The notes under the pieces were generated by a model, which saw only the letters and a list, made by a program, of their open reading frames with translations, was not told the DNA's origin and made no database searches. Positions 3,526 to 19,457 of a DNA stretch of 64,000 nucleotides are shown here, piece by piece. The stretch is from Sphingobacteriales bacterium 44-15. GTDB lineage: Bacteria; Bacteroidota; Bacteroidia; Chitinophagales; Chitinophagaceae. The DNA lies in the NCBI GenBank assembly GCA_001899685.1, contig MKWG01000043.1, positions 391,942 through 455,941 on the forward strand, read 5' to 3'. The position numbers and the translations under genes are program-made. Numbering within the stretch: position 1 is the stretch's first letter; every line of letters begins with the position of its first letter.

Positions 3526-6500
3526 TTAAAAGCCCACATTAACAGAAATAGAATAGACGCGCTGGCTCGGGTAGTCGTAATTATTTGTGCTGCCTGTTTC
3601 CGGATCCATATAATACTTCTTGGCCGGCGAAAAAGTGAGCAGGTTTGCACCGCTTAGCGTAACTCTCAGATTAGTAATAAAATTTACCCTGGAGAGCAGA
3701 CCACCTTTAAAATCGTATCCAAGCTGCAATGCTTTTAGACGGAGATAGCGTCCATTGGCAAGCCAATAATCGCTGGTAACCGTATTGTTATTACCGTTCA
3801 CTGAAACCGTGGTGGTAGCTCTTGGTAATAATGCATTGCTGTTTTGCATCGTCCAGTAATCAAGCTGAAAGGGGTAGATGATATTGGTACCATCTGTTAT
3901 GATATTGCTCAAATAAATATCTCTTTTACTCGCCCCCTGCCAAAGCATATTAAAAAACCATGCGTGCCAGGAAAGGTCTACAGTCAATCCGTAATTGATA
4001 CGGGGAAAAGGATTGCTTCCTACCCTTCTCTGATCATCTCCATCAAGTTTGCCGTCTCCATTTTCATCGCTGTACCGGATATCACCGGGACGCAAATTTG
4101 TTGAGGAGAGCCTTGTAGGACTGTTAAGGATATCTTCCGGAGTTTGGTATAATCCCTCTGCATAGTACCCGATGGTATTGTAACCAATAACCTGGGAAGA
4201 GCGCTTATACGGATTTTTCAACGTGGCGCTGTCTTCGTCAGGATTGACCTCCCACATCTGATCAAATTTGGTAAAATTCATTCCGATAGCATACTTCAGA
4301 TCACCTATGTGATTATTATAAGCCAGATGAAATTCGAAGCCTGCTCTTCTGAATGCACCGGTGGGTGAATTAATAAGCGGCAGCGATGTCCCCAGAGGGT
4401 CTGTATATCCTGCGCCGGAAGGGCTGGTAAGATAGTTTTTGGTCCTGTAGTAAAAATAATCTACAGAACCGCTTAGTGCATTGTTCAGTACCGTGAAGTC
4501 AACACCGGTATTAAAAGACTGCTGCGAATACCAGGTTATATTAGTACTTGGAAACCCGGGATCGCCAAACCCTGGCACAAAGCTTCCGCCGATAACATAT
4601 GCCTGGCTGTTGAGCGAGTATCCCGGTAGGTAAGCAAAATTACCTGCATTGGCATTCTGTCCCACCACACCATAGGATATTCTGTATTTCAGGAAATTTA
4701 AAAAATGCCTCTTATCAATAAGGTCCATAAATTTTTCCCGGCTGATCACCCATCCTGCAGAAGCAGCGGGAAAGAATCCCCAGCGTTTCCCCTCGGGAAA
4801 AAGATTGCCATTGCCATCATACCTGAACGTGCCTTCAAGAAGATATTTATCTGCATATTCATACTTCAGTTTGCCCAGATAAGCCGCTCTCGCGTTTTCC
4901 GCAGCGGATCCATTATTTTGTGCGCTGGCGCTTGGACCTGCAAACAACTGATCAACCGTGTTGAATTGATATCCTGTCCTGGCAGCACTGAAATTTTCAC
5001 CGTAATTATAGTATTCCTCATACCCCAGCAGCAGGTTCAGGGTATGATCACCAAAATTCCTCGCGTAATCAGTTAATGCCTGGAGCGTATATTCATATCC
5101 GTTAGAAGCAGATGCGCTCAGATTGGGAGGACTCTGCTGGGCTGGTACATCACTGCCAATAGCATACTGTGGAGCCGTGGTTTGCCAGGCCTTATTCCAG
5201 GAGTTATTTTGCCGGTAGTTGGCATTGATCCTGAAATCCCATCCTTTCACCCCGGGAACATCCCACTGCACATTTAACAGTCCGTTGGTACCCCGGTTTT
5301 GTGTTTTGTAATATCCCGAACGAGGATCCATTTCAACTATAGGGTGATCACCACCATTTGCATACCGTGTTTGGGCCAGATCACTATATGCCGGGCTCAT
5401 GGAGCTTTGATTCTGTATATGCCCCCATATAAAGTAGTAAATACTGCCGCCACCGCCGTCGTAACCACTATAGGGCTCCCGGTAATCTTCATTTACTCCA
5501 TAAATGCCCAGTGTAGCTTTTAAGCCTATTTTATCAAAATTGCCCGTTACATGCAGGCGGTAATTATACCGCTTAAGATCATTAGTATTGAACTTAAAGA
5601 GCGTTCCCTGGTCAAAATACCCTATAGAGCCATAATACTGGAACTTATTATCGCCACCTGTGATGGAAAGATTGTGATGCATCTGCGGTGCAAATTTTTT
5701 CAATGACAGCGCCTGCCAGTCTGTATTGGGATAATTCAGCGGATCCGTCTGGTTACGGTATTTTTGAATCGCGTCATCAGGATAGGCTTTCGGTTTGTCT
5801 TCACTTGCTGCAATTGCGTTTTTAGTCACGGCTACTTCATAAGAACTTAGTTTTTTAGGAAGAATAGTAGGCTGGCTCAGATCATATCCAAAATCATACT
5901 TCACCGACACCTTGCCTTTCGCTCCTCTTTTGGTAGTAACCAGTACCACACCATTTCCTGCAACCAATCCATAAATACCTGTTGCAGCAGCATCCTTCAG
6001 GAAAGAAATATTGTCAATGTCATTGATATTAAGAGTCCTGAAATCAAATTCAGAAGATATAATGTTGTCAATAACATATACAGGAGTACCTCCCCCGCGA
6101 ATGGAAACAGTAGGCACCTTTCCGGGGCCACCACCACTGGAGGTAACGATAACACCGGACACACGCCCTGCCAGGCCATCTCCTACGGTCGGTAATGGCA
6201 GGTTGGCAAGATTATCCCCTTTGAGGGTGGAAATAGCCGACACATTTTTTGATTGTGTGGTCTTTCCATATCCAACCACGATAACTTCATTAAGTCCCGA
6301 TGCAGTTTCTTTAAGCGTTATAGTAAGATTGTTTTCATTACTAACAGTATAACTCACACTTTCATATCCTACAAATGAAACCGTTAATACTACCTGGCCG
6401 CTTTCATTCACGTCAAGTGAAAATTCGCCATCATTATTAGTCGTGGTTCCGTTTTGCGTTCCTTTTTCGATCACGGAAGCGCCTGCTACCGGGTCGCCTG

Positions 6501-6918
6501 TCGTATTAATAACGCGTCCGCGCAACCGGCGTTTTTGCTGAAGCTCTTTAAAAGGATCTGCTACAATGATCACTACAGACTGATCTACAATCTTATAATT
6601 TAATGGCGTATTGGCAAGTATCCTTGTCAGGACATTAGTAACCTCTTCATCTTTAGCCTGCACAGATACATTATTCCCTTTGGGGATAATATCATTATTA
6701 AAAAGAAAACGATAGCTGGTTTTCTTCTCAATAGCAAGAAATACATCGGTAAGAGAAGCATCCTTCATACGCATTGTCAGCCGTGTCTGGGAATGCAGAT
6801 TGGCTGATAGCTGAAGGCAACACAACACCGAAAACACAAAAGTCAACTTCATACACTGAAGAATTGGCCGCAATTCATTTTCAGGCATGAAAATGCATCG
6901 CAGTAGTTTTTTTTGCAT
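3526..6918 (-). CDS. SusC/RagA family TonB-linked outer-membrane transporter with STN domain
   Basis: This 1130-residue protein has, in order: a signal segment (about 23-44), an STN domain (about 46-120, typical of receptors that signal through FecR), a CarboxypepD_reg-like domain (about 131-203), a plug (about 210-335, beginning EVIVVGYGK) and a 22-strand-type barrel ending in VYSISVNVGF. It imports oligosaccharides across the outer membrane using TonB energy. The STN domain together with the upstream anti-sigma gene predicts substrate-induced transcription. ATGs at codons 11 and 23 are alternative starts, and the codon-23 start gives a tidier signal peptide. Confidence 0.95.
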   Translation of the reverse strand: MQKKLLRCIFMPENELRPILQCMKLTFVFSVLCCLQLSANLHSQTRLTMRMKDASLTDVFLAIEKKTSYRFLFNNDIIPKGNNVSVQAKDEEVTNVLTRILANTPLNYKIVDQSVVIIVADPFKELQQKRRLRGRVINTTGDPVAGASVIEKGTQNGTTTNNDGEFSLDVNESGQVVLTVSFVGYESVSYTVSNENNLTITLKETASGLNEVIVVGYGKTTQSKNVSAISTLKGDNLANLPLPTVGDGLAGRVSGVIVTSSGGGPGKVPTVSIRGGGTPVYVIDNIISSEFDFRTLNINDIDNISFLKDAAATGIYGLVAGNGVVLVTTKRGAKGKVSVKYDFGYDLSQPTILPKKLSSYEVAVTKNAIAASEDKPKAYPDDAIQKYRNQTDPLNYPNTDWQALSLKKFAPQMHHNLSITGGDNKFQYYGSIGYFDQGTLFKFNTNDLKRYNYRLHVTGNFDKIGLKATLGIYGVNEDYREPYSGYDGGGGSIYYFIWGHIQNQSSMSPAYSDLAQTRYANGGDHPIVEMDPRSGYYKTQNRGTNGLLNVQWDVPGVKGWDFRINANYRQNNSWNKAWQTTAPQYAIGSDVPAQQSPPNLSASASNGYEYTLQALTDYARNFGDHTLNLLLGYEEYYNYGENFSAARTGYQFNTVDQLFAGPSASAQNNGSAAENARAAYLGKLKYEYADKYLLEGTFRYDGNGNLFPEGKRWGFFPAASAGWVISREKFMDLIDKRHFLNFLKYRISYGVVGQNANAGNFAYLPGYSLNSQAYVIGGSFVPGFGDPGFPSTNITWYSQQSFNTGVDFTVLNNALSGSVDYFYYRTKNYLTSPSGAGYTDPLGTSLPLINSPTGAFRRAGFEFHLAYNNHIGDLKYAIGMNFTKFDQMWEVNPDEDSATLKNPYKRSSQVIGYNTIGYYAEGLYQTPEDILNSPTRLSSTNLRPGDIRYSDENGDGKLDGDDQRRVGSNPFPRINYGLTVDLSWHAWFFNMLWQGASKRDIYLSNIITDGTNIIYPFQLDYWTMQNSNALLPRATTTVSVNGNNNTVTSDYWLANGRYLRLKALQLGYDFKGGLLSRVNFITNLRVTLSGANLLTFSPAKKYYMDPETGSTNNYDYPSQRVYSISVNVGF

Positions 6919-6998
6919 AACTTGAGTTTGAATTGTTAAATAACAAGCGACCTGTCCGTCTTGCGTAGGCGACAGCCGCTGATTTGTTTAATGAGTTT

Positions 6999-7024
6999 GC
7001 GGGAGATGTAGCAGCATTTCCCGC
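6999..7024 (-). other. hairpin in the fecR-susC gap
   Basis: Two 10-nt arms, GCGGGAGATG and CATTTCCCGC on the plus strand, pair with one mismatch around a 6-nt loop. The structure lies between the anti-sigma stop and the susC start and has no T-run after it on the minus strand. It could be an attenuator, an mRNA-stability element or a weak terminator separating the regulator genes from the transport genes. Confidence 0.45.
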
Positions 7025-7098
7025 TTTTGTTTTCAAAACATTGTTAGGTAATTCTGTTCATTGTTGCAGTCGTTTGGGTGATGAAATGAAATTTATAA

Positions 7099-8241
7099 CT
7101 AATAAATAATATACACATTACGGCTTGGATCGAACCGGTAAGAGAACCTGTAAGAAAAAGACAACCATTGAAGGGCCTGTTCTACATTTTCCCGCTCAAA
7201 TGTTCCTGTAAACCGTTTACCTTTCAGGCTACTGTTCTCAAACTCAATGGCTACGTTATACCATCTGCTCATATCTCCTGCCACATCTTCAAATGGCTTG
7301 TTTCGAAATACAAGCCTGTTGGACACCCACGAAGTCTCAACAATAGAGCTGTCTGTCGGTTGATAAGTTACACTGCTTACCACCGGCATTTTACTATCTT
7401 TAATCTTGATGCTGTCATTTCCCGGAGATGGCTTCTGGTCTCCCAAAACATAGTATCCCCGGCTACCGACAGATACTTTCTCATTGGGTTTAAGAATGAT
7501 ATTTCTACCGGTTCTTCCCGGGAAAGAAACCTCCAGGCTTCCGCGGATAAGTGAAGCCTCCGCCGACTTTTCTTCAGGGTAGGCGCGTACGTTGAAAGCA
7601 GTACCGAGCACTTTCAGATCCATTGATGTGGTATGAATGACGAAGGGAACCTTAGCATTGTGCGTTACATCAAAAAAAGCTTCTCCACTCAGCAGCACCG
7701 CCCTCACTTTTTTTCCAAAGTCATCACCATATTCCAACCTGCTGCCTGCGTTAAGCCATACGTGCGTCCCATCCGGGAGATCTACTATGGAACGCAACCC
7801 TTTTTGTGTGGAAACAATATGTTTATCTTCTTTCTTTTCCGGAACACCCGGACTGTTGCTGCGCAGCAGCCACCAAACGCTCACTCCCAGCAAAACTATG
7901 CTTGCTGCAGCTATGTATCTTAATATCCTAAAGTAGTTAGAGCGGCGGGGCGGAATATATGAACTCACCGGGTCACCTGCTGAATCATCATAATCCGCAG
8001 AAAGGACCGACGTCAGTATCCTTTTGGAAATATCTTCCGGCATAAGCCTGTCGGGCTGATAAATCCGCCAGGCATTTTCCAGGGCATCCCGGATATCATT
8101 ATCATCAGCAGACCGGCCGATCCATTCAAGCAGTTCAACACGTTCAGCTACTGTGCAAGTGCCGTTAATATATTTTTCTACAAGGACAGCTATATGCCTT
8201 CTTTCCATATATGATTTTAAGAATACCGGGAACTGGTTCAT
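7099..8241 (-). CDS. FecR-like anti-sigma factor
   Basis: This 380-residue protein has a cytoplasmic N-terminal sigma-binding part, one membrane span at about 109-126, a periplasmic FecR domain (about 145-240, with VDLPDGTHVWLNAGSRLEY and VLGTAFNVRAYP) and a C-terminal DUF4974/STN-like domain (about 310-380, LVFRNKPFEDV). It holds the neighbouring ECF sigma factor at the inner membrane until the SusC STN domain signals that substrate is bound. It lies between the sigma gene and susC, as usual for these loci. A second ATG at codon 12 is also a possible start. Confidence 0.93.
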   Translation of the reverse strand: MNQFPVFLKSYMERRHIAVLVEKYINGTCTVAERVELLEWIGRSADDNDIRDALENAWRIYQPDRLMPEDISKRILTSVLSADYDDSAGDPVSSYIPPRRSNYFRILRYIAAASIVLLGVSVWWLLRSNSPGVPEKKEDKHIVSTQKGLRSIVDLPDGTHVWLNAGSRLEYGDDFGKKVRAVLLSGEAFFDVTHNAKVPFVIHTTSMDLKVLGTAFNVRAYPEEKSAEASLIRGSLEVSFPGRTGRNIILKPNEKVSVGSRGYYVLGDQKPSPGNDSIKIKDSKMPVVSSVTYQPTDSSIVETSWVSNRLVFRNKPFEDVAGDMSRWYNVAIEFENSSLKGKRFTGTFERENVEQALQWLSFSYRFSYRFDPSRNVYIIY

Positions 8242-8301
8242 TCCTTCAGATATCTTTATAAAGACAAACAGAACAGAAAACAGGTCTAGTGAAAGATGAA
8301 A

Positions 8302-8949
8302 TTATTTTTCCAGCAATAAAAAAAGCGGAGCAAGCAGTAAGATACATCCTACTAGGTCCGGATATGATTTAAAATATTCCCTAAGTTTTTTTAACGCCTG
8401 TATCATATGGTTCCTGACGGTTGCCGGAGAAATACCAAGACGGGTAGCAATATCTTCATATTTAAGCCCATATTCCCTGCTTAAAACATATACCTGCTTT
8501 TGCTGTGGTGACAACTGGGACAGAATATGTTGCATAGCCTTATCGATTTCCTTGCTACTTATATATTTATCAATATTATATTCCAGCATTTCTTCGGAGG
8601 AGGCATCCTCGTTTTGGCTTAAGGAAGCCTCTCCCAGTACCTCCCGCGACAACTTCCTAAAAGCCTCTATACAATGATTTTTTGCCATACGAAAAACATA
8701 ACTATCGAAATGCTGTATTTCCGTCATCATTGAATTACGTTGCCATAATTTTAGAAAAATATCCTGAATGATGTCTTCTGTTACGGACTCGGAAGCTGTA
8801 ATACGGAGAAGGAAACTATATAGCTTGTGCTTATACCTGTGAAACAATTCAGTAAATGCCAGGGAATCTCCCAGCGAGCATTGCTGTAAAAGATCGTCTT
8901 CTGAAAACGCGTTATAGTCCGGGCTCATACAAACGTTAGTTTTGGGCAC
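8302..8949 (-). CDS. ECF (FecI-like) RNA polymerase sigma-70 factor
   Basis: This 215-residue sigma factor has region 2 (about 30-95, FHRYKHKLYSFL and VTEDIIQDIFLKLW) and region 4 (about 145-190, LSPQQKQVYVLSREYG and ISPATVRNHMIQALKKLR, the helix-turn-helix). It should direct transcription of the adjacent SusCD locus when released by the FecR-like protein next to it. The last 17 residues are strongly hydrophobic, a tail I have seen in other Bacteroidota ECF factors that may help membrane tethering. It is divergent from the LysR gene, with a 160-bp gap. Confidence 0.94.
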   Translation of the reverse strand: MPKTNVCMSPDYNAFSEDDLLQQCSLGDSLAFTELFHRYKHKLYSFLLRITASESVTEDIIQDIFLKLWQRNSMMTEIQHFDSYVFRMAKNHCIEAFRKLSREVLGEASLSQNEDASSEEMLEYNIDKYISSKEIDKAMQHILSQLSPQQKQVYVLSREYGLKYEDIATRLGISPATVRNHMIQALKKLREYFKSYPDLVGCILLLAPLFLLLEK

Positions 8950-9109: not shown

Positions 9110-10003
9110 ATGTTCGATTTTCGTCTCCGGGTTTTTCATACTGTTGCCAGGCGGCTTAATTTCACTAAGACCGCCGAAGAGTTATTTATCACCCAACCTG
9201 CGGTGAGCAAGCACATACAGGAAATTGAGCATTATTTCAAAGTAAAGCTGTTTGAACGCAACGGCACAAAAATAAAGCTGACCGCCGCAGGGGAAGTACT
9301 GCTGCAATACACAGAGCAATTGTTTGATATATACCGTCATCTCGAATTTGACCTCAACACTTTCTCACAAAAGCATTCCGGTATGTTGCGGATCGGCGCC
9401 AGCACTACAGCAGCCCAATACGTGCTTCCGCCGGTGCTCTCCGCCTTTCACAAAAAATTTAAAGACACCAAAATCACATTAACCACCGGCAATACCGAGC
9501 AGATAGAGCATGCCCTGCAGCAGCATGATATTGACCTTGGCATTGTGGAAGGCAGGTCGAAAAACAATCTTTTCAAATACACCGCATTCGTGAAAGATGA
9601 GCTGGTACTGGTAGCCGGTAGCAATCATCCCCTCGCAAAGAAGGGCAGCATCAAACCCGCAGAGCTGCTCAAAATCCCACTGCTGCTGAGAGAGCCCGGA
9701 TCAGGAACGCTGGAAGTGATCGCACATGCGCTCAAACCCCTGGGTATAAAAATCTCACAATTGCAGGTAGAAATGCAACTGGACAGCACCGAAAGCATGA
9801 AGCGCTACCTGCTCAATGCCAATGTTATGGCTTTTCTTTCTATACACGCTGTACTGAATGAACTCAAAAACAAGGAATGCGCTATCATAGAAGTAAAAGG
9901 TCTGGATATTGAAAGAAGCTTTTATTTTATACAGCAGCACGGGCAGGCAGCATCGCTTGCCGGTTTATTTATGAAATTTGCTTCTCATTATAACTTCAGG
10001 TAA
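9110..10003 (+). CDS. LysR family transcriptional regulator
   Basis: The start chosen is the ATG at 9110, giving 297 residues that begin with the standard LysR winged helix (MFDFRLRVFHTVARRLNF, TQPAVSKHIQEIE at about 26-38). The frame stays open further upstream, but that stretch is not LysR-like. Residues 90-290 form the effector-binding fold (SGMLRIGASTTAAQYVLPPVL; RLLLREPGSGT-like loop), nearest in style to CysB/CysL-type sensors of anions. It lies 71 bp upstream of the cytochrome/DsrE/binding-protein genes on the same strand and is the obvious candidate regulator. The ligand is unknown. Confidence 0.93.
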   Translation: MFDFRLRVFHTVARRLNFTKTAEELFITQPAVSKHIQEIEHYFKVKLFERNGTKIKLTAAGEVLLQYTEQLFDIYRHLEFDLNTFSQKHSGMLRIGASTTAAQYVLPPVLSAFHKKFKDTKITLTTGNTEQIEHALQQHDIDLGIVEGRSKNNLFKYTAFVKDELVLVAGSNHPLAKKGSIKPAELLKIPLLLREPGSGTLEVIAHALKPLGIKISQLQVEMQLDSTESMKRYLLNANVMAFLSIHAVLNELKNKECAIIEVKGLDIERSFYFIQQHGQAASLAGLFMKFASHYNFR

Positions 10004-10074
10004 TGGCAGATCACCAATAGCAATTTCCTGCTCATTTTTCCATAAAGCAACTTTGCAGCATCAAAAGCAAAGGC

Positions 10075-11115
10075 ATGTTAATGGAAGAACAACAACTAAG
10101 GGGGACTGACCGGGACAGGTTATCACATCTGAAAGCAAACTGGTTTCCCCTCGTGCTGATTACCATCGTTGCGATAGTAATAGCTGTCAATTGCATCACC
10201 GGACATAACGAAAGCAAAAGCATAGTCCGCAGGCTGGCAACATATACGGCAACGCAGGCTACAGATACCGTATGGCGCGGCTGGAGCAAATACCATATAC
10301 CCGTGGGTACTGCCGACGGAGACCTGGTATGGTATGGACATGAGCTGATCTCCAATACTTCTTTTTACCTGGGTCCAAATGGCACGGTAGCGCAGATCAC
10401 CAATGGCATGAACTGCCAGAACTGCCATCTTGATGGAGGCACCCTCCCCTATGGAAATAATTTCGGGAAAGTATATGCTACCTATCCAAAATACCGTGCA
10501 AGGAACAACGGCATACAAAATATTTATGATCGCATCAACGATTGCCTGGAACGCAGCCTGAATGGAAAAACAATGGACACCGCTACACGCGAAATGCAGG
10601 CAATATATGCCTACTTTAAATGGCTGGGAGAAGATGTTCCGAAAGGCGTGGCGAAGGGAGGCACCAGCCTGATGAAGCTGCCTTATTTAGACCGGGCTGC
10701 AGATCCCCTTGCAGGAAAACAGGTATATACAGCCTATTGCCAAAGCTGCCATGGTGCTAACGGTGAGGGACAGATGAAGTCCGACAGCACCGGCTACACC
10801 TATCCGCCGCTATGGGGAGCCCATAGCTACAATGACGGCGCGGGGCTCCACCGTCTCAGCAGTTTTGCAGCATTTGTGAAAAATAACATGCCCTTTGGGA
10901 CAGATTATCACAACCCGAAGCTCAGTAATGAAGAAGCCTGGGATGTGGCAGCTTATGTTAACAGTCAGCCCAGACCGCATAAGGACCAGGTTGCCGACTG
11001 GCAGGATCTTGCAAAGAAACCTGTTGACTTTCCTTTCGGACCCTATGCAGATACTTTTTCAGAGCGCAGGCACAAATATGGACCTTTTAAAAGCATTAAA
11101 AATGTACAACAATAA
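10075..11115 (+). CDS. membrane-anchored di-haem cytochrome c, TsdA/SoxA type
   Basis: This 346-residue protein has one N-terminal membrane span (about 24-41) and two haem c sites, CQNCH (114-118) and CQSCH (222-226). NMPFG supplies a likely distal Met (272). Between the haems lies RINDCLERSLNGK (Cys157), a segment shared by thiosulfate dehydrogenase TsdA and SoxA cytochromes. TsdA couples two thiosulfates to tetrathionate. The protein should face the periplasm. The DsrE-like gene 18 bp downstream supports sulfur chemistry. Substrate and direction of electron flow are inferred; a generic electron carrier is the alternative. Confidence 0.82.
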   Translation: MLMEEQQLRGTDRDRLSHLKANWFPLVLITIVAIVIAVNCITGHNESKSIVRRLATYTATQATDTVWRGWSKYHIPVGTADGDLVWYGHELISNTSFYLGPNGTVAQITNGMNCQNCHLDGGTLPYGNNFGKVYATYPKYRARNNGIQNIYDRINDCLERSLNGKTMDTATREMQAIYAYFKWLGEDVPKGVAKGGTSLMKLPYLDRAADPLAGKQVYTAYCQSCHGANGEGQMKSDSTGYTYPPLWGAHSYNDGAGLHRLSSFAAFVKNNMPFGTDYHNPKLSNEEAWDVAAYVNSQPRPHKDQVADWQDLAKKPVDFPFGPYADTFSERRHKYGPFKSIKNVQQ

Positions 11116-11133
11116 CAACAAAAACATAAGCAC

Positions 11134-11601
11134 ATGAAAAATTTATCCTTTCTTCTCATCAGCATTGCATCCTTTACTATTACGGCTACGGCACAAACCG
11201 GCAGTAATGCACTTCAAAAAAATGCAGTATTTGCGGGGGCAAAAGCCACTCAGAAAGCGTACCATGCCATTTACCAGTTAGACAAAAACGATCCGAAAGT
11301 CATAGAAAAAGCCATCCGCAATATTAATAATGCGCTCAGTGATCCCAGGCTTTCCGGTAAAATCCAGGTTGAATTAGTAGCTTTCAGCGGCGGAACCGAT
11401 GCCTTTATAAAAGGCGGCAAATATGAAGAAGACCTGAAAGCATTGGTGGAAAAAGGGGTAATAGTAGCGCAATGCAATAACACACTGCACGAAAGAAAGA
11501 TCAGCCGCGACCAGTTGTATGACTTTATTGCCATAGTGCCCAGCGGTAATGGCGAGCTCATCATCAGGCAGACGGAAGGATGGGCTGTCATTAAACCATA
11601 A
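11134..11601 (+). CDS. periplasmic DsrE-like protein
   Basis: This 155-residue protein has a signal peptide (cleavage near TATA-Q, residue 21) and one DsrE/DsrF-fold domain. Its only cysteine, Cys114, is in the AQCNNTLHE motif, matching the conserved sulfane-carrying cysteine position of DsrE-type proteins. Family members pass persulfide sulfur between partners, or act as cofactor-free binding domains. It begins 18 bp after the di-haem cytochrome and ends 35 bp before the solute-binding gene, so the three are probably one operon. Export is notable, because classic DsrE acts in the cytoplasm. Confidence 0.85.
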   Translation: MKNLSFLLISIASFTITATAQTGSNALQKNAVFAGAKATQKAYHAIYQLDKNDPKVIEKAIRNINNALSDPRLSGKIQVELVAFSGGTDAFIKGGKYEEDLKALVEKGVIVAQCNNTLHERKISRDQLYDFIAIVPSGNGELIIRQTEGWAVIKP

Positions 11602-11636
11602 TAATATTAATTTGCAGAGCTGCTAAAATCATACAA

Positions 11637-12545
11637 ATGAAAAGAACTATCGCATTTATGATCATCATTATGGCTACTACAGCCGTATACGCACAGGATC
11701 ACCGTTTCGACCCTCCCTGGAATACAGCACCGGAAAGTAAGGTAATGTTTACCATTCCCGGGGTCGACAATGTACCCGACCTGTACGGCGACATCAATGA
11801 CCCGCAGCTGGTGGTCTTTTTTGCAGGCAACCAGTTCATGTGCATTGACGACCTGCTGGCAGCTTTCAAAAAAGCATACCCGCAGTACCAGCGTATTTTT
11901 GCGGAGACCTTACCTCCCGGCATACTTGCCAAACAAATTGACGGAGGCAGCATTACTATCGGTAATATGCGCATTACCCTCCGGCCCGATGTATATACTG
12001 CGGGCAAATCCCGGATCGTACAAATGACTGACCTCTTCAGCGATACTGCTGCGTATGCCTATAACAAACTGGCAATAATGGTGCAAAAGGGCAATCCGAA
12101 AAACGTCAGAGGATTAAAAGACCTTGGCAGGAAAGATATAAAGGTAAGCATGCCTAATCCTGCCTGGGAGGGCATTGCAAAACGTATAGAAGAAGCTTAT
12201 GTAAAAGCGGGCAGCGAAGCATTGAAAAACTCGATCATGCAGACCAAGGTAAAAGACAGCAGCACTTATCTCACACAGATCCACCACCGGCAAACGCCCA
12301 TGCGCATTCTCTATCACCAGAGCGATGCCGGTCCCGTGTGGTATTCTGAAGCCTATTACCAGCAGATGATCGGCCATCCCATAGAGATGATAGCTATTCC
12401 TGATAAAGAAAATATAACGGCAATCTATATGGCCGGGCTAATGAAGAACGCGCCACACCCGGAAGCGGCAAAGGATTTCATGCACTTCCTGCAAAGCGCA
12501 ACGGCAAAGACGATCTACCGAAAATATGGCTTTACTACGGAGTAG
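11637..12545 (+). CDS. periplasmic solute-binding protein, ModA/SBP_bac_11-like
   Basis: This 302-residue protein has a signal peptide (to about residue 19) and a two-lobe type II binding-protein fold: VVFFAGNQFMCIDDLLAAFKK, a central AYNKLAIMVQKGNPKNVRGLKDL hinge and a C-terminal AAKDFMHFLQSATAKTIYRKYGF. This is the layout of molybdate- and other oxyanion-binding proteins. No ABC ATPase or permease is next to it, so it may deliver or sense an anion for the cytochrome system rather than feed a transporter. The ligand is not predictable from the sequence. It is the last gene before a repeat element and a convergent gene. Confidence 0.83.
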   Translation: MKRTIAFMIIIMATTAVYAQDHRFDPPWNTAPESKVMFTIPGVDNVPDLYGDINDPQLVVFFAGNQFMCIDDLLAAFKKAYPQYQRIFAETLPPGILAKQIDGGSITIGNMRITLRPDVYTAGKSRIVQMTDLFSDTAAYAYNKLAIMVQKGNPKNVRGLKDLGRKDIKVSMPNPAWEGIAKRIEEAYVKAGSEALKNSIMQTKVKDSSTYLTQIHHRQTPMRILYHQSDAGPVWYSEAYYQQMIGHPIEMIAIPDKENITAIYMAGLMKNAPHPEAAKDFMHFLQSATAKTIYRKYGFTTE

Positions 12546-12628: not shown

Positions 12629-15358
12629 TTACTTTACCATAAGCGGCGCATATTGTACCCCGACACCCCCTTTCAGATCAATGCCCTGTATAAGCATGAT
12701 GTAGTTGCTGTGGCTTTCAGAAGTATAAAAATTCAATACAGCTTCTCCCCGGTCATTGGTAACGATATTCGGGTCCCAATACACAGTAGAACGGAAATCG
12801 GGATAAGGAGTGATCTCATCCGGGGACGTGTATTTAGGACTGTAGAATTGTTTGGCAATGAACGGGAACACAGGCTTATATAAGTATATTCCAGGTGTTT
12901 TTCGCATAAAAGGACCTGAGCCTGTCTGTGTAGTGATCTCCACAAAAGAATAATCAACAGTGACGGGATTGCTGTTCATCAATTCGCTGATAGTCAAAAA
13001 ATGTGTACGATAGGCGCTGTTATAACGGGGAGTGTTCATCACCTCTATCCCTTTTATATCTTCTGCCGAAAAGTACATCAGTTGGCTTTTATAATAATTC
13101 AGGTAATCCATACTGGAAGCAGCAGAAGCAGGATCATAAAAAAATTCCAGGTCTACTCCGTCAATAATGAACCTTACCATATTGGAGTTGATCATATAAC
13201 GATAGACTGTGCTTTTGCGTAATGTGCCCATGCGAAAACCTTTTACCTGCTTTTGCAGCACATCCAACAGGGTCTCTTTTGGGGTTTTCGCCAGCACACT
13301 TTCACTTATTACCTGGTCTGCTCCGCCACCCTCATTCAGGTTTTTCGAACCGGGAATGGTAGCCTTGCCTTTAATGATCACTTCCTTCAGATAAGTGCCG
13401 TCTTTTTTCATTTGCGTTACCAGGCTATCCTGTGCGGCAATATATTTCTTTACAGTAGTATCCAACAGCACATTGAAAAGGGGTGATACAAAAGCTTTGC
13501 CTGTATAGGGCGGGTAGTCCGGCTCATCCAGGGTGATGCCCACATTGAATGCCTTTCCCCTCCGGTTAAGCGCCCTGAACACCATGCTGATGCTGTCTGT
13601 TTCATACAGCGGAAAATGAGTAAAGTTAAAAGCGCCCTTATCGTTGGTAATGGTGTCGAGCAGAAAGGCGTTTTCTTTACCGGCTTTTCCAAACAAAGTA
13701 ATGCTAGTGCCTGCCAAAGGCTTATTGAATATATTGGTTGCTTTACCACTAATGCTGAAACCATCTTCATAGCTGTAGGGAAAAGGCTGCGCTGAACGTT
13801 CATAGCTTACCCATCCCTGGGTCAGCATTAATGCATCCGTAGCTTCGGATGCCGGGTGCTTAAAATAATAATACGGCTCTTCTATATGCCCCCGGATATC
13901 TGAGCTGAGCAACATATAGCTAAGCAGGTTTTCCTGGTTTGGCGATGATATCGCTACCTGACCGGTATCTATGACCGAGATCGAAAAGCTGCCCATAACC
14001 GGCTTATTGTCTTTATCAAGCACTTTTACCGTAAGAGATACACTATCTTTTTGGGAATATACAGGTTTGTGAGGGGTCAAAGCAATTTTCAGATCATCAT
14101 TTTGCCATGCAAAGAATGCCCGCTCATTTACAGGCTGCAATTGTTCATTATATACCGTGCAAGTCATTACACCAGATGGCAGATCACTCCTTTTCAGCTT
14201 TAACTGATAGGGCATTTCTTTAAGCAGTATCCTGCCTCTTGCAAATACGAGTCCCCGGCAGGCGGCAGTAAACCAGAGCATGCTGCCCCGCTTGTCCGGA
14301 CTACCATCTATACTTATGATCACACTATCCTGTAAGCGGGCATTCTGTACAGAAAGTATAATACCGGATTTTTCCGCCGCCGGCAGCGGTACTAAACGTC
14401 CGTCTTTCAAAACGGCAGTATATGTTTCTCCGTCTGCAGGAGTGATCTCTATTATCCCCATGCCATGATGCAAAGAAGAGAAACCTGTAACTGTTGTTCC
14501 TTTATTATTCTTTATAATACCTGCTACGGCAATGCCCCGTCCACTATTGTCAATTGCTTTGAATCCCAGTCTCTGCGCTTTCCCCACAATAAAGCTACCC
14601 CCTTCCGGAAAGAACTGAAGGTCAATAGTGCCCTGCTCCGGCACAATGGGAACAGTTAACTTCAGGTTATCCGCTCCTGTTATTTCCATAGCCAGGTTCT
14701 GATACCTGGTCTCATTGATAAGCGTATCTATTTTAACTTCTCCGGCAGCATTGGGAATGACGACAGCTTTGAAAAGACTCCTGTTTTTCGATCGCAGGCG
14801 GATGGTCACCGGGTTTTGAACTGCCGGGGATGATCTTGCTGCCGAAACTTTAGCAGATAATTTCAACCTGTTATCAACCAGGCTAAGTTGTTGCATAGTC
14901 GCTTTCCATACCTCATCTGCAGGATTGATGATAGTAAAAGGCAGCTCATAAAAAAGTGAATCGCCAAAGTTGCGCATATAACGGGTATAGGATCGCAGGA
15001 GATATTGCCCCTGTGAAAAATCGACATCCGACAAAGCAATATAGCTGGTAAACATACCCAGCCCGCACGGAGGATTTACTCTTTTGACTATTGTGCCTGC
15101 CGCATCTATAATTTCTATATAGGCGATTTTGCTGCTATCGTTGGGAGCATGATCCGAAGCGGTAAGAATATATCCTTTCAGCCAGAGCGTATCCCTGAGG
15201 CGGTAATATGGCTTGTCAATATAAATAAACAGTTTTTCCCTGGGATTGTTGTAACTGGCACTATCCATGGCAGATATCCTGCGTTCAAAAGCAGCAGTCT
15301 GCGCTTCAGCGACAAAACAGTACAATAGGCAGGCTGTTATAAATATTATCTTTTTCAG
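12629..15358 (-). CDS. MG2-domain / TonB-plug surface protein with apparent CTG start
   Basis: About 909 residues. An N-terminal MG2/macroglobulin-like part (EKLFIYIDKPYYRLRDTLWLKGYI; QGQYLLRSYTRYMRN) is followed by Ig-like domains and a C-terminal TonB-plug-like segment with no barrel. I know the family as large secreted or outer-membrane proteins of unknown role in Bacteroidota. No ATG exists in frame upstream. The best start is CTG at 15358, followed by AAAAAGATAATA, because it restores a normal signal peptide (KKIIFITACLLYCFVAEAQ); a TTG at 15325 would cut into that signal. It is convergent with the binding-protein gene. Confidence 0.82.
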   Translation of the reverse strand: MKKIIFITACLLYCFVAEAQTAAFERRISAMDSASYNNPREKLFIYIDKPYYRLRDTLWLKGYILTASDHAPNDSSKIAYIEIIDAAGTIVKRVNPPCGLGMFTSYIALSDVDFSQGQYLLRSYTRYMRNFGDSLFYELPFTIINPADEVWKATMQQLSLVDNRLKLSAKVSAARSSPAVQNPVTIRLRSKNRSLFKAVVIPNAAGEVKIDTLINETRYQNLAMEITGADNLKLTVPIVPEQGTIDLQFFPEGGSFIVGKAQRLGFKAIDNSGRGIAVAGIIKNNKGTTVTGFSSLHHGMGIIEITPADGETYTAVLKDGRLVPLPAAEKSGIILSVQNARLQDSVIISIDGSPDKRGSMLWFTAACRGLVFARGRILLKEMPYQLKLKRSDLPSGVMTCTVYNEQLQPVNERAFFAWQNDDLKIALTPHKPVYSQKDSVSLTVKVLDKDNKPVMGSFSISVIDTGQVAISSPNQENLLSYMLLSSDIRGHIEEPYYYFKHPASEATDALMLTQGWVSYERSAQPFPYSYEDGFSISGKATNIFNKPLAGTSITLFGKAGKENAFLLDTITNDKGAFNFTHFPLYETDSISMVFRALNRRGKAFNVGITLDEPDYPPYTGKAFVSPLFNVLLDTTVKKYIAAQDSLVTQMKKDGTYLKEVIIKGKATIPGSKNLNEGGGADQVISESVLAKTPKETLLDVLQKQVKGFRMGTLRKSTVYRYMINSNMVRFIIDGVDLEFFYDPASAASSMDYLNYYKSQLMYFSAEDIKGIEVMNTPRYNSAYRTHFLTISELMNSNPVTVDYSFVEITTQTGSGPFMRKTPGIYLYKPVFPFIAKQFYSPKYTSPDEITPYPDFRSTVYWDPNIVTNDRGEAVLNFYTSESHSNYIMLIQGIDLKGGVGVQYAPLMVK

Positions 15359-15407
15359 AATAGCACTAAAATAAGTAAAATCATTTGATAATAACCCCGT
15401 GATGGGT

Positions 15408-15542
15408 GTATTTCAATTTTTCGCGCCTGCACAACTTTTCGGTCGGTGAGACCCGCCCGAACGATGTTCAGTCGGGCGGGCACCGACCAGTAGCGGGTTC
15501 TACAGGCGGGTGTCGCCACCCGCCTGCGAAAAACCGGAATGC
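15408..15542. repeat. 135-nt two-hairpin repeat, copy A
   Basis: The first hairpin pairs GGTCGGTG and CCCGCCCGA (15441-15460) with TCGGGCGGG and CACCGACC (15472-15488). The second pairs CAGGCGGGTG (15503-15512) with CACCCGCCTG (15517-15526) around a TCGC tetraloop. A diverged copy lies at 45242-45375 in the same orientation, starting with the same GTATTTCAATT. Copy A is between two minus-strand genes. It looks like a mobile, structured non-coding element (REP/MITE-like). Confidence 0.8.
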
Positions 15543-15555
15543 GCTCCCCGTGATG

Positions 15556-17124
15556 CTATAATGATCTCCTGCGGACATACCTGAAATATAACAGCAGCCC
15601 GATACATACCATTGCCACCTGCATGGCAGCGCCAAACATAGTGCTGATATCCCTGGCCATTTTGCCGGCCCAGTCCATAAAATGGTGTTTGTGCAAAAAT
15701 GCAAAGCTGTATCCTTCCGCAAGATCCTTATCCCGTACTCTCGTTGAAAGCACACCCGTTGAAGTTTCTATGTAATACCGCTCATTGTCATTGGTCGCAT
15801 AACTCACTTTCCACACCGGCAACCGCTTATTTACAAAACCATATTCATCTGTAAATGTTGTAACCGGAACAATGCCCGATGGCGCCTGCCGGCTGAAGCC
15901 GGAAGCAAGCCATACCGCATATTGCCTGTCGCCATCATTCAATATCCTGTAATCACCGGATGATATATACAGGACCTCCTGTTGCGGCGCCGACATACTT
16001 TTCATCAGATCTGTCCTGCCGTCTGCTTTCGACATATTCATTTTAGGATACACCTGCCGGTAAGTCTTTCCATTCATCCTGCATAACGATATCTTTTGTA
16101 TTTTCCTGCTACCTGCTAATGAGTCAATTTCAGCAAAATCAATATCCGCATCTTCACCTGAAAACTTTTGTGGTATATAAGAATGCAACGCATCCTGTGG
16201 CAATACTTTCTCCAGTGCATGGAATCCGCCGCTGAAGGTGAACATCAGCGTGAACAAAGAAGCGATCAGCGAGGTATAGCGATGATTGCGCCGGGCCTTC
16301 ATCACCGGCTTATCCGACCTTTTTGTCTTTGTTGTAAAAAATATATACAGTCCCAAAACAGTAGTCAGGAAGGCTGCTGATGTGAGCGCTATCATGAAAT
16401 AATACTTCGTATCTCCCAATGCATCCATCCATTGCCAGGTATGACATATACCAAAAAAAGTATCGAATGCAGATCTTTTGTTGTCTACTGCGTATCCAAA
16501 CCTCCCGGAAAACGTCTCTACATATATCCGTATACCGTCGCCCCTGTCAAATGAAACCTTATACGCCGGCAGCAAACGGTTAATGTATTTATACTCGTCA
16601 TCAAAATGAGTGATCTGCTCTACGCCGGCGATCTTCGCACCATGGCTGTTCATGACATTCATGGTAGCTATCATACAGCAATCGTGCACCGGCATAGCCA
16701 TGGAAGCCGTAAATACAGGCTGTTGTTCAGCCCTGTCCTTTCCTGTATTACCTTCAAGAAATGTTTTGGCAAGAAAGCGTGCATAGAGCTGGTCTCCGCC
16801 TTTTAACAGCTTTCCGTCACGGGTGCTGAAATAACGGATATCCAGGTGTTCATCATCAAGCGCTACCTGGTAAAACTGCTGCCCTCCCATCTGCACAATA
16901 TGCATGTTGCTGAACGAATCAATATGATGCTGTTGCAGACACACCTTCAATGAAATATTCAATTGTGCAGGATCAATCCCCGGAGCAGCCAGGAATTGTG
17001 TTGCTATGGATGGTCTGATATTGGTCATGACCGGATGCATAAACCCGCTGATCGCCCATAATGATACCGGTAAGGCAATAACGAGCGAAAGCACCCTGTG
17101 CCATTTATAGATTTTCTTTCGCAT
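15556..17124 (-). CDS. PepSY-associated membrane protein (ferric/metal reductase type)
   Basis: The start is set at the ATG at 17124 (MRKKIYKWHRVLSL), giving 522 residues; the frame upstream adds 13 residues that do not fit the family. Membrane spans lie near residues 10-30, 235-260, 285-305 and 495-515, with two periplasmic PepSY-like halves (FYQVALDDEHLDIRYF and TYRQVYPKMNMSK). HRVLS and HKHHFMDW histidines fit haem or metal binding. Such proteins lie next to siderophore receptors and are thought to reduce imported iron. It follows the TonB receptor by 50 bp in one operon. Confidence 0.87.
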   Translation of the reverse strand: MRKKIYKWHRVLSLVIALPVSLWAISGFMHPVMTNIRPSIATQFLAAPGIDPAQLNISLKVCLQQHHIDSFSNMHIVQMGGQQFYQVALDDEHLDIRYFSTRDGKLLKGGDQLYARFLAKTFLEGNTGKDRAEQQPVFTASMAMPVHDCCMIATMNVMNSHGAKIAGVEQITHFDDEYKYINRLLPAYKVSFDRGDGIRIYVETFSGRFGYAVDNKRSAFDTFFGICHTWQWMDALGDTKYYFMIALTSAAFLTTVLGLYIFFTTKTKRSDKPVMKARRNHRYTSLIASLFTLMFTFSGGFHALEKVLPQDALHSYIPQKFSGEDADIDFAEIDSLAGSRKIQKISLCRMNGKTYRQVYPKMNMSKADGRTDLMKSMSAPQQEVLYISSGDYRILNDGDRQYAVWLASGFSRQAPSGIVPVTTFTDEYGFVNKRLPVWKVSYATNDNERYYIETSTGVLSTRVRDKDLAEGYSFAFLHKHHFMDWAGKMARDISTMFGAAMQVAMVCIGLLLYFRYVRRRSL

Positions 17125-17174
17125 ATAATGTGAGTTAAAGAAAGCAGGCGTGCCGCGACACACCTGCCTTTATC

Positions 17175-19457
17175 TTACTTTTTTCCAAAATGGTATGCAA
17201 GCCCGAATGTTATTTCTCTCGGATCGCCGAGATTATAGGAATATGCAGCATTCCCGTTAGTGGTGGCATTTTTGGAAGCGAGTACCGCATAATAAAGATT
17301 GGTGGCATTCAGCGCGTTTATCCATATCTCAAAGCCTTTTATACGATAGCCGGTTCTCAGGTTCAGGATATCAAAACCACCATAGCTGTAATTATCCAGG
17401 TCATCCATAAAGTACCTGCCCTGGTGCTGCCATTCGGCGCTGATCCTGAATCCCTGTAAAAAAGAAGGCTTGTACATTATTTCGGCATTTGCCATAAATC
17501 TTGGGGCTGCGCTCATTTCTTTGCCGTTGTAGTCAACGCCTTTCACAATATTGTCAACAAATACATGTTTGGCATTGGTGGCGCTGAAATGTACAGAAAG
17601 GTCAGGAACCGGTTTGTAAGTAATACCGTATTCAATGCCGGTATGCCTTGTGGATCCCGCATTTTGATTGATATAGGAGTTGTCGGGCTGCTTTACCGAA
17701 ATGATCTCATTGGTGCCATTCAGGCGATAAAGGCTCCAGTCGAGATATATTTTATTTTCCACCAGCGAAGCCCAGCCACCTATCTCATAATTGAAAAACG
17801 ACTGCGGCAGCAGGTAAGGCGCCTCCTTGATACTGCTGTATAGATCGGTAAGCTGCGGTGGAACATAGCCCTGGCTGTAATTAGCGTAAAACCCGGTACT
17901 CTTCAAATTATAGGTAAGCCCGAGTTTGGGAGTAACCCTTCCAAATGAATTGATGGTTGATGCCGTGCTTACACTGGTCGAAGCAGGCGCATTATTGATA
18001 AAATAATATTTAAATGCATCATAGCGCAACGCAGCAACAACTTTCAGGTTGCGCAGGGGAGAAAATTCATAATCAATATAGCTTGCCAGGTTGACAATCC
18101 CGGTATTGTATTTGCTCAAAAACGAATCTACTGCAGGAGCATCGTAGCTTACAAACTTACCGGACGGCAGGTCTTTATGTATTGAAATGAATTTTGCATA
18201 ATAGTTTTGCGGGCTGTAGTCAACGCTTGCTCCTGCTATGAGTTTGCTTTTTGCCCAGGGTATTTTTTGTGAATGGGTCACAAACAATGCGTAGGTGCTG
18301 AAGGCATTCTCGTTGATCTGTCCCCTGTATTTCTCCGGATCGGGCGTGCTTGCTATAGAATAAGAAGGGTTTTGTTCTACGGAATTATTACGATAGAGCA
18401 GGGCGATATTGGTATTGCTGTTATCATTCCACTGGTGATTGAGCATTGATTTGTAGCGCAGCGCATATACATTACGATAAGTAAACGTCTGTAGGGAAGT
18501 ATAATCTTTTTTTGCAAATTTTATACTATCTATTGATCCCGACATATCGCTGGAGTAATCAACCAGCGCAAGCGTATTGGTCCAGCTCGTATGCTCGCCG
18601 GCACGATAATCAGTCCTGACAGTGATCGCCTTTTTATCAAAATCACTGTATTCAATCGGCCCGTTTTTCTTATCGGCATAGTAGCCGCTTACAATAACAC
18701 CCCATTTTCCTATAGGCGTTCCGGCCTGCAGGTCAACGCGCCTGTACCCTTTATCATTCATCTGCAGGCTAACCGTTCCACCGGCAAGTGCGGGGGAACT
18801 TTGTGTGATAACATTCACCGCCCCGCCAATAGCTTCTGCACCGTACATGGCTGAAGAAGGTCCTTTAATGACTTCTATTGATCTGGCTGCCGGAAGATTC
18901 ATCTCCAGCAATGCATTATGATTATATACTCCCGAAGTACGGATGGGAATACCATCTTCCATGTATAAAAAAAGGCTTTTCGTGGTCATGGGCTGGCGGA
19001 TGCTCATCTCATGCTGCTCATTGCCCAAGTTTACCATAAATACCCCGCTTACTTTATTGAGCAGGTTATCGAGCCGCTGCGCTTTGGTATCTTCCATTGC
19101 CTGCTTATTAATGGTGGCAATGGCAACAGGAGCCTCCCTCCTTTTCTGTGCCGTGCGGTTAGCGCTCACAACCACCTCCTGCATATTATTGTTATTTCTT
19201 TTCAGAGCGATATTGAGATGATCCGGTTGAACTTTCTGTGAAAAATACCCGGTAAAGCTTATTTCTATTTCACCAATGCCGGCCGGTACCGAAAAAGATC
19301 CGTCAGCCTCCGACACTGAAGTATGATTGCCGGCTTTAATTGTCGCGCCGGGCAATGGTTCCCTGGTATCCGCATCGTATACCCTGCCTTTTCCGGATTG
19401 CCCAAATAAGGCGGAGCAGCATACCATACCAAGAAACAGTACAAAAACCTGTTTCAT
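17175..19457 (-). CDS. TonB-dependent outer-membrane receptor (metal/siderophore type)
   Basis: This 760-residue receptor has a signal peptide (LFGQ, about residue 20), a CarboxypepD_reg-like domain (about 23-88, GKGRVYDADTREPLPGATI), a plug (about 92-215, EVVVSANRTAQKRREAPVAI, SIEVIKGPSSAMYGAEAIGG) and a barrel ending in ITFGLAYHFGKK. Size and plug motif fit siderophore or metal receptors rather than SusC. The PepSY gene downstream and the Cys-rich gene upstream support iron or copper import. The exact ligand is not visible. Confidence 0.92.
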   Translation of the reverse strand: MKQVFVLFLGMVCCSALFGQSGKGRVYDADTREPLPGATIKAGNHTSVSEADGSFSVPAGIGEIEISFTGYFSQKVQPDHLNIALKRNNNNMQEVVVSANRTAQKRREAPVAIATINKQAMEDTKAQRLDNLLNKVSGVFMVNLGNEQHEMSIRQPMTTKSLFLYMEDGIPIRTSGVYNHNALLEMNLPAARSIEVIKGPSSAMYGAEAIGGAVNVITQSSPALAGGTVSLQMNDKGYRRVDLQAGTPIGKWGVIVSGYYADKKNGPIEYSDFDKKAITVRTDYRAGEHTSWTNTLALVDYSSDMSGSIDSIKFAKKDYTSLQTFTYRNVYALRYKSMLNHQWNDNSNTNIALLYRNNSVEQNPSYSIASTPDPEKYRGQINENAFSTYALFVTHSQKIPWAKSKLIAGASVDYSPQNYYAKFISIHKDLPSGKFVSYDAPAVDSFLSKYNTGIVNLASYIDYEFSPLRNLKVVAALRYDAFKYYFINNAPASTSVSTASTINSFGRVTPKLGLTYNLKSTGFYANYSQGYVPPQLTDLYSSIKEAPYLLPQSFFNYEIGGWASLVENKIYLDWSLYRLNGTNEIISVKQPDNSYINQNAGSTRHTGIEYGITYKPVPDLSVHFSATNAKHVFVDNIVKGVDYNGKEMSAAPRFMANAEIMYKPSFLQGFRISAEWQHQGRYFMDDLDNYSYGGFDILNLRTGYRIKGFEIWINALNATNLYYAVLASKNATTNGNAAYSYNLGDPREITFGLAYHFGKK

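Follow-up and report, generated by a model that had tools for sequence, protein, structure and literature searches.

A TsdA-type cytochrome, an exported DsrE protein and a periplasmic binding protein in Bacteroidota: a probable periplasmic thiosulfate-oxidation module

What does a periplasmic binding protein do when it is encoded beside a di-haem cytochrome and an exported DsrE-family protein, and not beside a transporter? This question is raised by a locus in a 64,000-nucleotide stretch of contig MKWG01000043.1 of Sphingobacteriales bacterium 44-15 (the window; the genome is 6.0 Mb in 46 contigs). An earlier note, made from the letters of this DNA, described four adjacent plus-strand genes, and all four were confirmed: a LysR-type regulator (9110–10003), a di-haem cytochrome c (10075–11115), a DsrE-family protein (11134–11601) and a solute-binding protein (SBP; 11637–12545). 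The genes are separated by 71, 18 and 35 bp, and the gene after the SBP gene is convergent. The four genes probably form a periplasmic thiosulfate-oxidation module under sulfite regulation, in which the SBP presents an oxyanion and the DsrE protein carries it.

According to the sequence search of PDB chains, the best solved relatives of the cytochrome are TsdA 4wqc (E 1.5e-42) and 5lo9 (E 4.5e-35), which we take to be TsdBA. The next match outside TsdA is a cbb3 subunit (E 8e-6), and SoxA 1h31 gives E 0.008. The earlier note had set TsdA/SoxA against generic electron carriers; the protein groups with TsdA and not with such carriers. The Pfam families SoxA-TsdA_cyt-c and Cytochrom_C are both matched over their cut-offs. 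The haem 1 site is CQNCH (residues 114–118, 10414–10428), and the haem 2 site is CQSCH (residues 222–226, 10738–10752). In the alignment with 4wqc, Cys157 (10543–10545; RINDCLERSLNG / RIGDCFERSLNG) is located at the position of the TsdA cysteine that is presumably the ligand of haem 1. C114, C117, C157, C222 and C225 are invariant in 59/59 rows (identical rows were merged, and three of 61 rows below 80% of the median length were omitted). Judged by its sequence, the cytochrome is of the TsdA type. It shares with TsdA and TsdBA the two CxxCH sites, a cysteine in the ligand position of haem 1 and conserved flanks, whereas it differs from them in an N-terminal membrane anchor, read by eye and also described in the earlier note, and in its frequent DsrE and SBP partners. 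In a tree of 51 rows (50 from cassettes and the genome's own paralog), the TsdA proteins of SBP cassettes did not form one clade, and the largest pure group contains 28 rows. Thus, either the tree is too weak, or the cassette arose, moved or lost genes on more than one occasion.

The DsrE protein has a signal peptide, likewise read by eye, and matches PF02635 (30.4 bits; cut-off 22.7) and the MTH1491 structure 1l1s (E 5.5e-16). Cys114 (11473–11475) is its sole cysteine and is invariant in 51/51 rows. The SBP shows a signal peptide by eye and no lipoprotein cysteine. It matches PF13531 (E 7e-42), and its structure model has the fold of ModA and sulfate-binding proteins, preceded by a conserved N-terminal segment at about residues 24–53. 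The motif IHHRQTP (residues 215–221, 12279–12299) has a core that is common across phyla: I215, H216, H217 and R218 are found in at least 95% of 65 Bacteroidota rows and in at least 90% of 10 proteobacterial rows, and the complete motif is exact in 35 and 8 of these rows, respectively.

One SBP copy is present in the window genome. At E ≤0.001, the PF00528 permeases of the genome are four, namely PstC, PstA and two Opp-like proteins, and none of them is in the cassette. Thus, no permease of the sulfate or molybdate type is recognisable for the SBP in this genome, in agreement with the earlier note, which had seen a binding protein with no ABC transporter. The fold is shared with ModA, sulfate-binding proteins and PEB3/AcfC at weak sequence similarity, whereas the lack of an ABC partner in the genome, the extra N-terminal segment and the IHHR motif set the SBP apart. 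An assignment to PEB3/AcfC was rejected, since PEB3 tops the phmmer search weakly (E 3e-6) and the model is equally near ModA and sulfate-binding proteins; GPGGP, which we take to be the AcfC motif, is absent from the window SBP and is found in the second SBP of two aligned relatives (L090 and L091). The SBP appears to serve enzymes, not a transporter.

For the neighbourhood counts, the best 80 of 178 SBP relatives from a scan of genome contigs were taken; upstream sequence is shorter than about 2.5 kb in four of them. By genus, these loci belong to Bacteroidota save one, which is named just as a bacterium, and several of the genomes are shared with the phylum sample described below. The closest SBPs, from Flavihumibacter, Hydrotalea and a Chitinophagaceae bacterium, are 79–82% identical to the window SBP. 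TsdA lies within 3 kb of the SBP gene in 74 loci, DsrE within 1.5 kb in 71, and both in 69 of the 80, a co-occurrence that is not due to chance and that the earlier note had named as its check. The same-strand order TsdA-DsrE-SBP, taken from open reading frames alone, is found in 65/80. Of the 149 genomes examined in the order, 28 have TsdA relatives, 10 have DsrE of the window type and three have the SBP, two of these three being weak matches of 27–29%. In 395 genomes sampled evenly across the phylum, ten have the SBP, including the same two weak matches, which leaves seven besides the window genome. DsrE is directly upstream in all seven, and TsdA is also present in six. The SBP is also present in one of 11 additional genomes from the genus. 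With it, DsrE is directly upstream in 8/8 relatives and TsdA is present in 7/8; in the remaining relative, SoxB-like and persulfide dioxygenase genes take the place of TsdA.

Some features of these loci were observed besides the main set. A second protein of the SBP_bac_11 family often accompanies the cassette, lying at most 6 kb away in 33/80 loci (for example, L090 7569–8309, L094 7976–8725 and L183 7869–8642). In a Mucilaginibacter locus (L113 10925–13586), three extra genes lie between two SBPs, the first of them peroxiredoxin-like by eye, and L115, L116 and L119 contain a three-gene insert of similar size. L134 and L150, which have the SBP and neither TsdA nor DsrE, are flanked on either side by similar genes, judged by size and N-termini; in these two loci the SBP may thus stand by itself in a stable setting.

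The SBP is also found outside Bacteroidota. The tblastn search of plasmids gave 25 records: three from Bacteroidota (63–66% identity), 19 from Proteobacteria (41–46%, spanning some 91–93% of the length) and three remote, ModA-like ones (24–26%). Fifteen records were counted (12 proteobacterial and three from Bacteroidota), and seven were left out with the remote three. TsdA-DsrE-SBP is present on all three plasmids from Bacteroidota. In 11 of the 12 proteobacterial loci, a Tat-type protein matching the profile of thiosulfate dehydrogenase (TSD) is encoded directly upstream of the SBP. Four of these proteins were scanned, and all score 342–418 bits against NCBIfam NF052225 (cut-off 300). TsdA is nearby in nine of the 12 loci, and in the remaining three DoxDA stands behind the SBP. 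DoxDA is a thiosulfate:quinone oxidoreductase, which passes electrons to quinone. L204, outside this count, has the order Tat-SBP-DoxD by annotation. With the same cut-off, TSD was found in 0/385 Bacteroidota genomes, and the best match in the window genome is 28 bits.

The earlier note knew of no described system with this set. This claim does not hold, as a related order, tsd-sbp-doxDA, is reported for Acidithiobacillus ferrooxidans as AFE_0042-0043-0044 (PMC2754497, PMC6335251; these and the other papers cited are drawn on in excerpt), and AFE_0043 is up on sulfur (PMC2754497). The Gluconobacter plasmid locus has the order TSD-SBP-DoxDA with an SBP 44% identical to that of the window. Likened through this gene order and the Gluconobacter SBP, both systems would combine a thiosulfate oxidase, an exported protein of the DsrE superfamily and a periplasmic binding protein, whereas Bacteroidota have TsdA for DoxDA and DsrE for the Tat-exported TSD.

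TSD is an experimentally assigned thiosulfate dehydrogenase (PMC6335251). In hhalign, a Tat-signal family of Bacteroidota (L049 and others) is matched to DsrE at 91–95% and to TSD at 97.1–97.6%. When this family and TSD are combined, the match to DsrE is 95.5% (E 1.4e-8), and the invariant TSD cysteine falls on DsrE Cys114. The controls (three profiles in reverse and six pairings with the profiles of TsdA, LysR and SBP) are all below 1%. The TSD rows were trimmed to the last 263 residues, and those of L195 and L198 had started upstream of the start codon. On these profile comparisons, TSD is a distant DsrE relative. Because of this relationship, and because the SBP stands beside differing oxidases, an exported DsrE-type protein together with an SBP would accompany unrelated thiosulfate oxidases. 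Nothing argues more strongly for thiosulfate, or the product of its oxidation, as the compound handled by the SBP than this pairing with a DsrE-superfamily protein across phyla. The Tat-signal family itself has about 230 residues and is found in Chitinophagales, mostly near TsdA (L049 7652–8338, L067 9051–9749, also L050, L056 and L068). The Pfam scan of the L049 and L067 members gave no match.

The regulator suggests a second anion. Pfam HTH_1 and LysR_substrate are matched over their cut-offs, and the relatives in the PDB are NdhR 5y2v (E 3e-36) and YeiE 7erp (E 5e-19). The open frame extends back from ATG 9110 to TTG 8996; the start at 9110 is preferred because the usual LysR N-terminus begins there. 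The protein scores 162.7 bits against the NCBIfam YeiE equivalog cut-off of 480; thus, it is YeiE-like and not YeiE. In the alignment, Glu147 (9548–9550) lies at the place of the glutamate in the YeiE IEG motif, and Glu is found in 30/30 rows. From this alignment we infer that it is the same residue as Glu145 of YeiE, which discriminates sulfite from sulfate (PMC12423496). YeiE controls YeiH under sulfite stress (PMC12880088). The cassette resembles this response in the LysR effector domain with a putative discriminating Glu and in the YeiH-type genes located within 6 kb of the SBP in 21/80 loci. It differs in that the response is tied here to a thiosulfate-oxidation cassette and in that YeiH is absent from the window locus; the YeiH-family gene of the window genome is on C2, outside the cassette, and lacks neighbours of the Crp-TauE-persulfide dioxygenase-rhodanese kind. 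Thus, the thiosulfate reading of the earlier note, which did not mention sulfite, is extended by the regulator and the neighbours. On the Spirosoma linguale plasmid pSLIN02 (L184 6914–7842), the SBP matches are in two reading frames and are missing from the gene table, and LysR, YeiH and a sulfite-oxidase-type Mo enzyme come after the SBP.

We infer the ligand, the direction of the reaction, the carrier role and the formation of a complex from the genes, families, conservation and partners established above. The SBP would capture thiosulfate, or tetrathionate formed from thiosulfate, and would hand the anion to TsdA and DsrE, not to an ABC permease. TsdA would withdraw electrons and couple thiosulfate to DsrE Cys114 or to another thiosulfate. 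In the Sox system (SoxAX and SoxYZ), SoxAX oxidatively loads thiosulfate onto a cysteine of SoxY. This is a possible parallel, in which a cytochrome oxidises thiosulfate onto a carrier cysteine, whereas the carrier in the window cassette would be a DsrE-fold protein. DsrE Cys114 may take thiosulfate, giving a Cys-S-thiosulfonate, or sulfane sulfur, by analogy with SoxAX acting on SoxY and with Metallosphaera DsrE3A, which takes thiosulfate from tetrathionate onto Cys (PMC4175335). LysR would sense sulfite arising en route and activate the module, together with the YeiH sulfite exporter where it is nearby. Tetrathionate or sulfane sulfur would pass to persulfide dioxygenase and TauE genes elsewhere in the genome for the final steps and export. 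The thiosulfate relay of the earlier note is strengthened in the role of the SBP and Cys114, by the invariance and by the exchange of TsdA for DoxDA, and loses its claim that the set is without a described relative.

A more specific version is possible, and we offer it tentatively. The SBP, freed from an ABC system, would serve an exported DsrE-fold carrier, and TsdA or DoxDA would conjugate thiosulfate onto the carrier cysteine, giving a thiosulfonate relay similar to SoxYZ. TSD would then be a carrier and not a redox enzyme, which would explain why the AFE_0042 enzyme (TSD) reduces neither ubiquinone nor cytochrome c (PMC6335251).

Other sulfur genes accompany TsdA in this order. In 27 TsdA loci of other genomes, TsdA has a SoxB-like gene beside it in 15, and in 12 the listed neighbours include a DsrE relative; genes for a porin, TauE, YeeE halves and persulfide dioxygenase-rhodanese are common companions. 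On C36 of the window genome lies a Crp-TauE-persulfide dioxygenase-rhodanese cluster. For SoxB, this genome reaches 97 bits at best (cut-off 550), and it was found to lack PF00174 proteins of the sulfite-oxidase type. The TsdA-SoxB-SDO pathway of Erythrobacter flavus (PMC7608252) is similar in that SoxB-like genes stand beside TsdA in these 15 loci, often with persulfide dioxygenase genes, whereas the window locus has no SoxB-like gene; neither an SBP nor an exported DsrE is described in the excerpts of that paper. A Chitinophagales sulfur cluster (L066 3916–13028, also L065, L074 and L075) was observed that contains Crp, TauE, persulfide dioxygenase-rhodanese, TsdA, SoxB-like, DsrE and OprD-type porin genes. 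In L066, YeeE-type halves are present, and the SoxB-like protein scores 242 bits against the cut-off of 550.

Several results weigh against a thiosulfate-oxidation module of this composition. Two further TsdA genes of the window genome stand beside a DsrE match without an SBP: at C37:136699, TsdA is 69% and DsrE 68% identical to the cassette proteins, and at C37:295554, TsdA is 58% identical and a Tat-signal protein lies upstream. Nine of the 80 SBP loci are incomplete (L123, L133, L134, L138, L140, L141, L142, L144 and L150; four have neither partner, three TsdA only and two DsrE only), and TsdA/DsrE are divergent from the SBP in L156 and L176. The nine incomplete loci fall short of a strict interdependence of the three proteins. 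The SBP distances follow the TsdA distances (r 0.86) and the DsrE distances (r 0.83), and 0/999 permutations reach either value; this co-divergence speaks for the module, but the correlation, from the 50 of 81 loci with all three genes, a distinct SBP and TsdA of at least 280 residues, ignores shared species history. LysR is within 6 kb of the SBP in just 44/80 loci, and the LysR and YeiH neighbours indicate sulfite as much as thiosulfate. TSD was not found beside the SBP in Komagataeibacter (L196). Among the 12 proteobacterial loci, L185 and L192 share one SBP accession and L186 and L199 another; since these are near-copies and all the DoxDA cases are from acetic acid bacteria, the exchange with DoxDA rests on few independent cases. 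The hhalign match of 95.5% depends on the intermediate Bacteroidota family, the direct DsrE-TSD match being 71–75%, and the PDB profile search with TSD gave no DsrE structure (best match E 0.86). The SBP model has a mean pLDDT of 68, with residues 13–54 and 215–224 among those below 50, and therefore no claim about the pocket rests on it. Lastly, TsdA in other bacteria can work backwards as a tetrathionate reductase.

The sulfite signals could also mean that the locus detoxifies sulfite: LysR would sense it, YeiH would export it, the SBP would bind it in the periplasm, and sulfane sulfur on DsrE would turn it into thiosulfate, which TsdA would convert to tetrathionate. The YeiE-like LysR with its invariant Glu147, the YeiH-type genes in 21/80 loci, the Mo enzyme on pSLIN02 and the YeiE-YeiH link to sulfite (PMC12880088) are in favour of it. 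However, the YeiH-family gene of the window genome lies outside the cassette, and the thiosulfate oxidase DoxDA replaces TsdA in 3/12 proteobacterial loci. We therefore consider it unlikely. TsdA family members can be bifunctional, as in Campylobacter, and the cytochrome might thus reduce tetrathionate that the SBP captures from outside, with DsrE taking the thiosulfate formed. DsrE3A does react with tetrathionate (PMC4175335), but cytochrome oxidase genes beside the cassette in L183, L184 and L194, and the electron flow from DoxDA to quinone, make this highly improbable.

The two remaining explanations concern the SBP. Its ModA/sulfate-binding fold would suit an ordinary ABC importer of sulfate, thiosulfate or molybdate with a permease elsewhere, the adjacency to TsdA and DsrE reflecting shared regulation only; as the PF00528 proteins of the genome are of the PstC, PstA and Opp-like types, and the SBP stands behind DsrE or TSD across phyla, the chance of this is very slight. 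By eye, the loops of the SBP are without the serines that bind the ligand in ModA, and its ligand may therefore be neither sulfate nor molybdate. Such a ligand could be another sulfur compound, for example polysulfide or an organic thiosulfonate, processed by TsdA-like chemistry, and TlpA, DsbC and thioredoxin-like neighbours in Proteobacteria are compatible with it. The recurring partners, however, are the thiosulfate enzymes TSD, TsdA and DoxDA, and we give this explanation very little credence. A thiosulfate-oxidation module remains the probable answer.

The genes on both sides of the cassette are on the opposite strand, and the flanking SusC, FecR, sigma and TonB genes were for that reason dropped as members. 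Upstream, an ordinary-looking row (3526–8949, minus strand) contains ECF sigma and FecR genes and a 1130-residue gene that is SusC-like by eye. Downstream (12629–19457, minus strand), an 898-residue protein has a TonB plug match of 23.5 bits against a cut-off of 23.9, and beyond it a PepSY-TM protein adjoins a TonB-dependent receptor with the plug over the cut-off.

There are earlier descriptions of TsdA, of DsrE, of the fold of the SBP and of the Acidithiobacillus cluster. The Bacteroidota TsdA-DsrE-SBP cassette, an SBP that lacks a permease and the putative kinship of TSD with DsrE are new, in that they were unreported in a limited check of the open-access literature, including excerpts of PMC11582611. 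A review treats TsdA cytochromes and TSD/DoxDA as different kinds of thiosulfate oxidation (PMC6335251); through their DsrE-superfamily and SBP partners, TsdA cytochromes and the Acidithiobacillus TSD with DoxDA would be joined, and the cofactor-free action of TSD becomes a directly testable puzzle. It would be unusual, if true, for an SBP to work with enzymes rather than with a transporter. For many heterotrophic Bacteroidota, among them Pedobacter, Mucilaginibacter, Chitinophaga and Dyadobacter, the cassette would be a specific and testable module for thiosulfate and sulfite.

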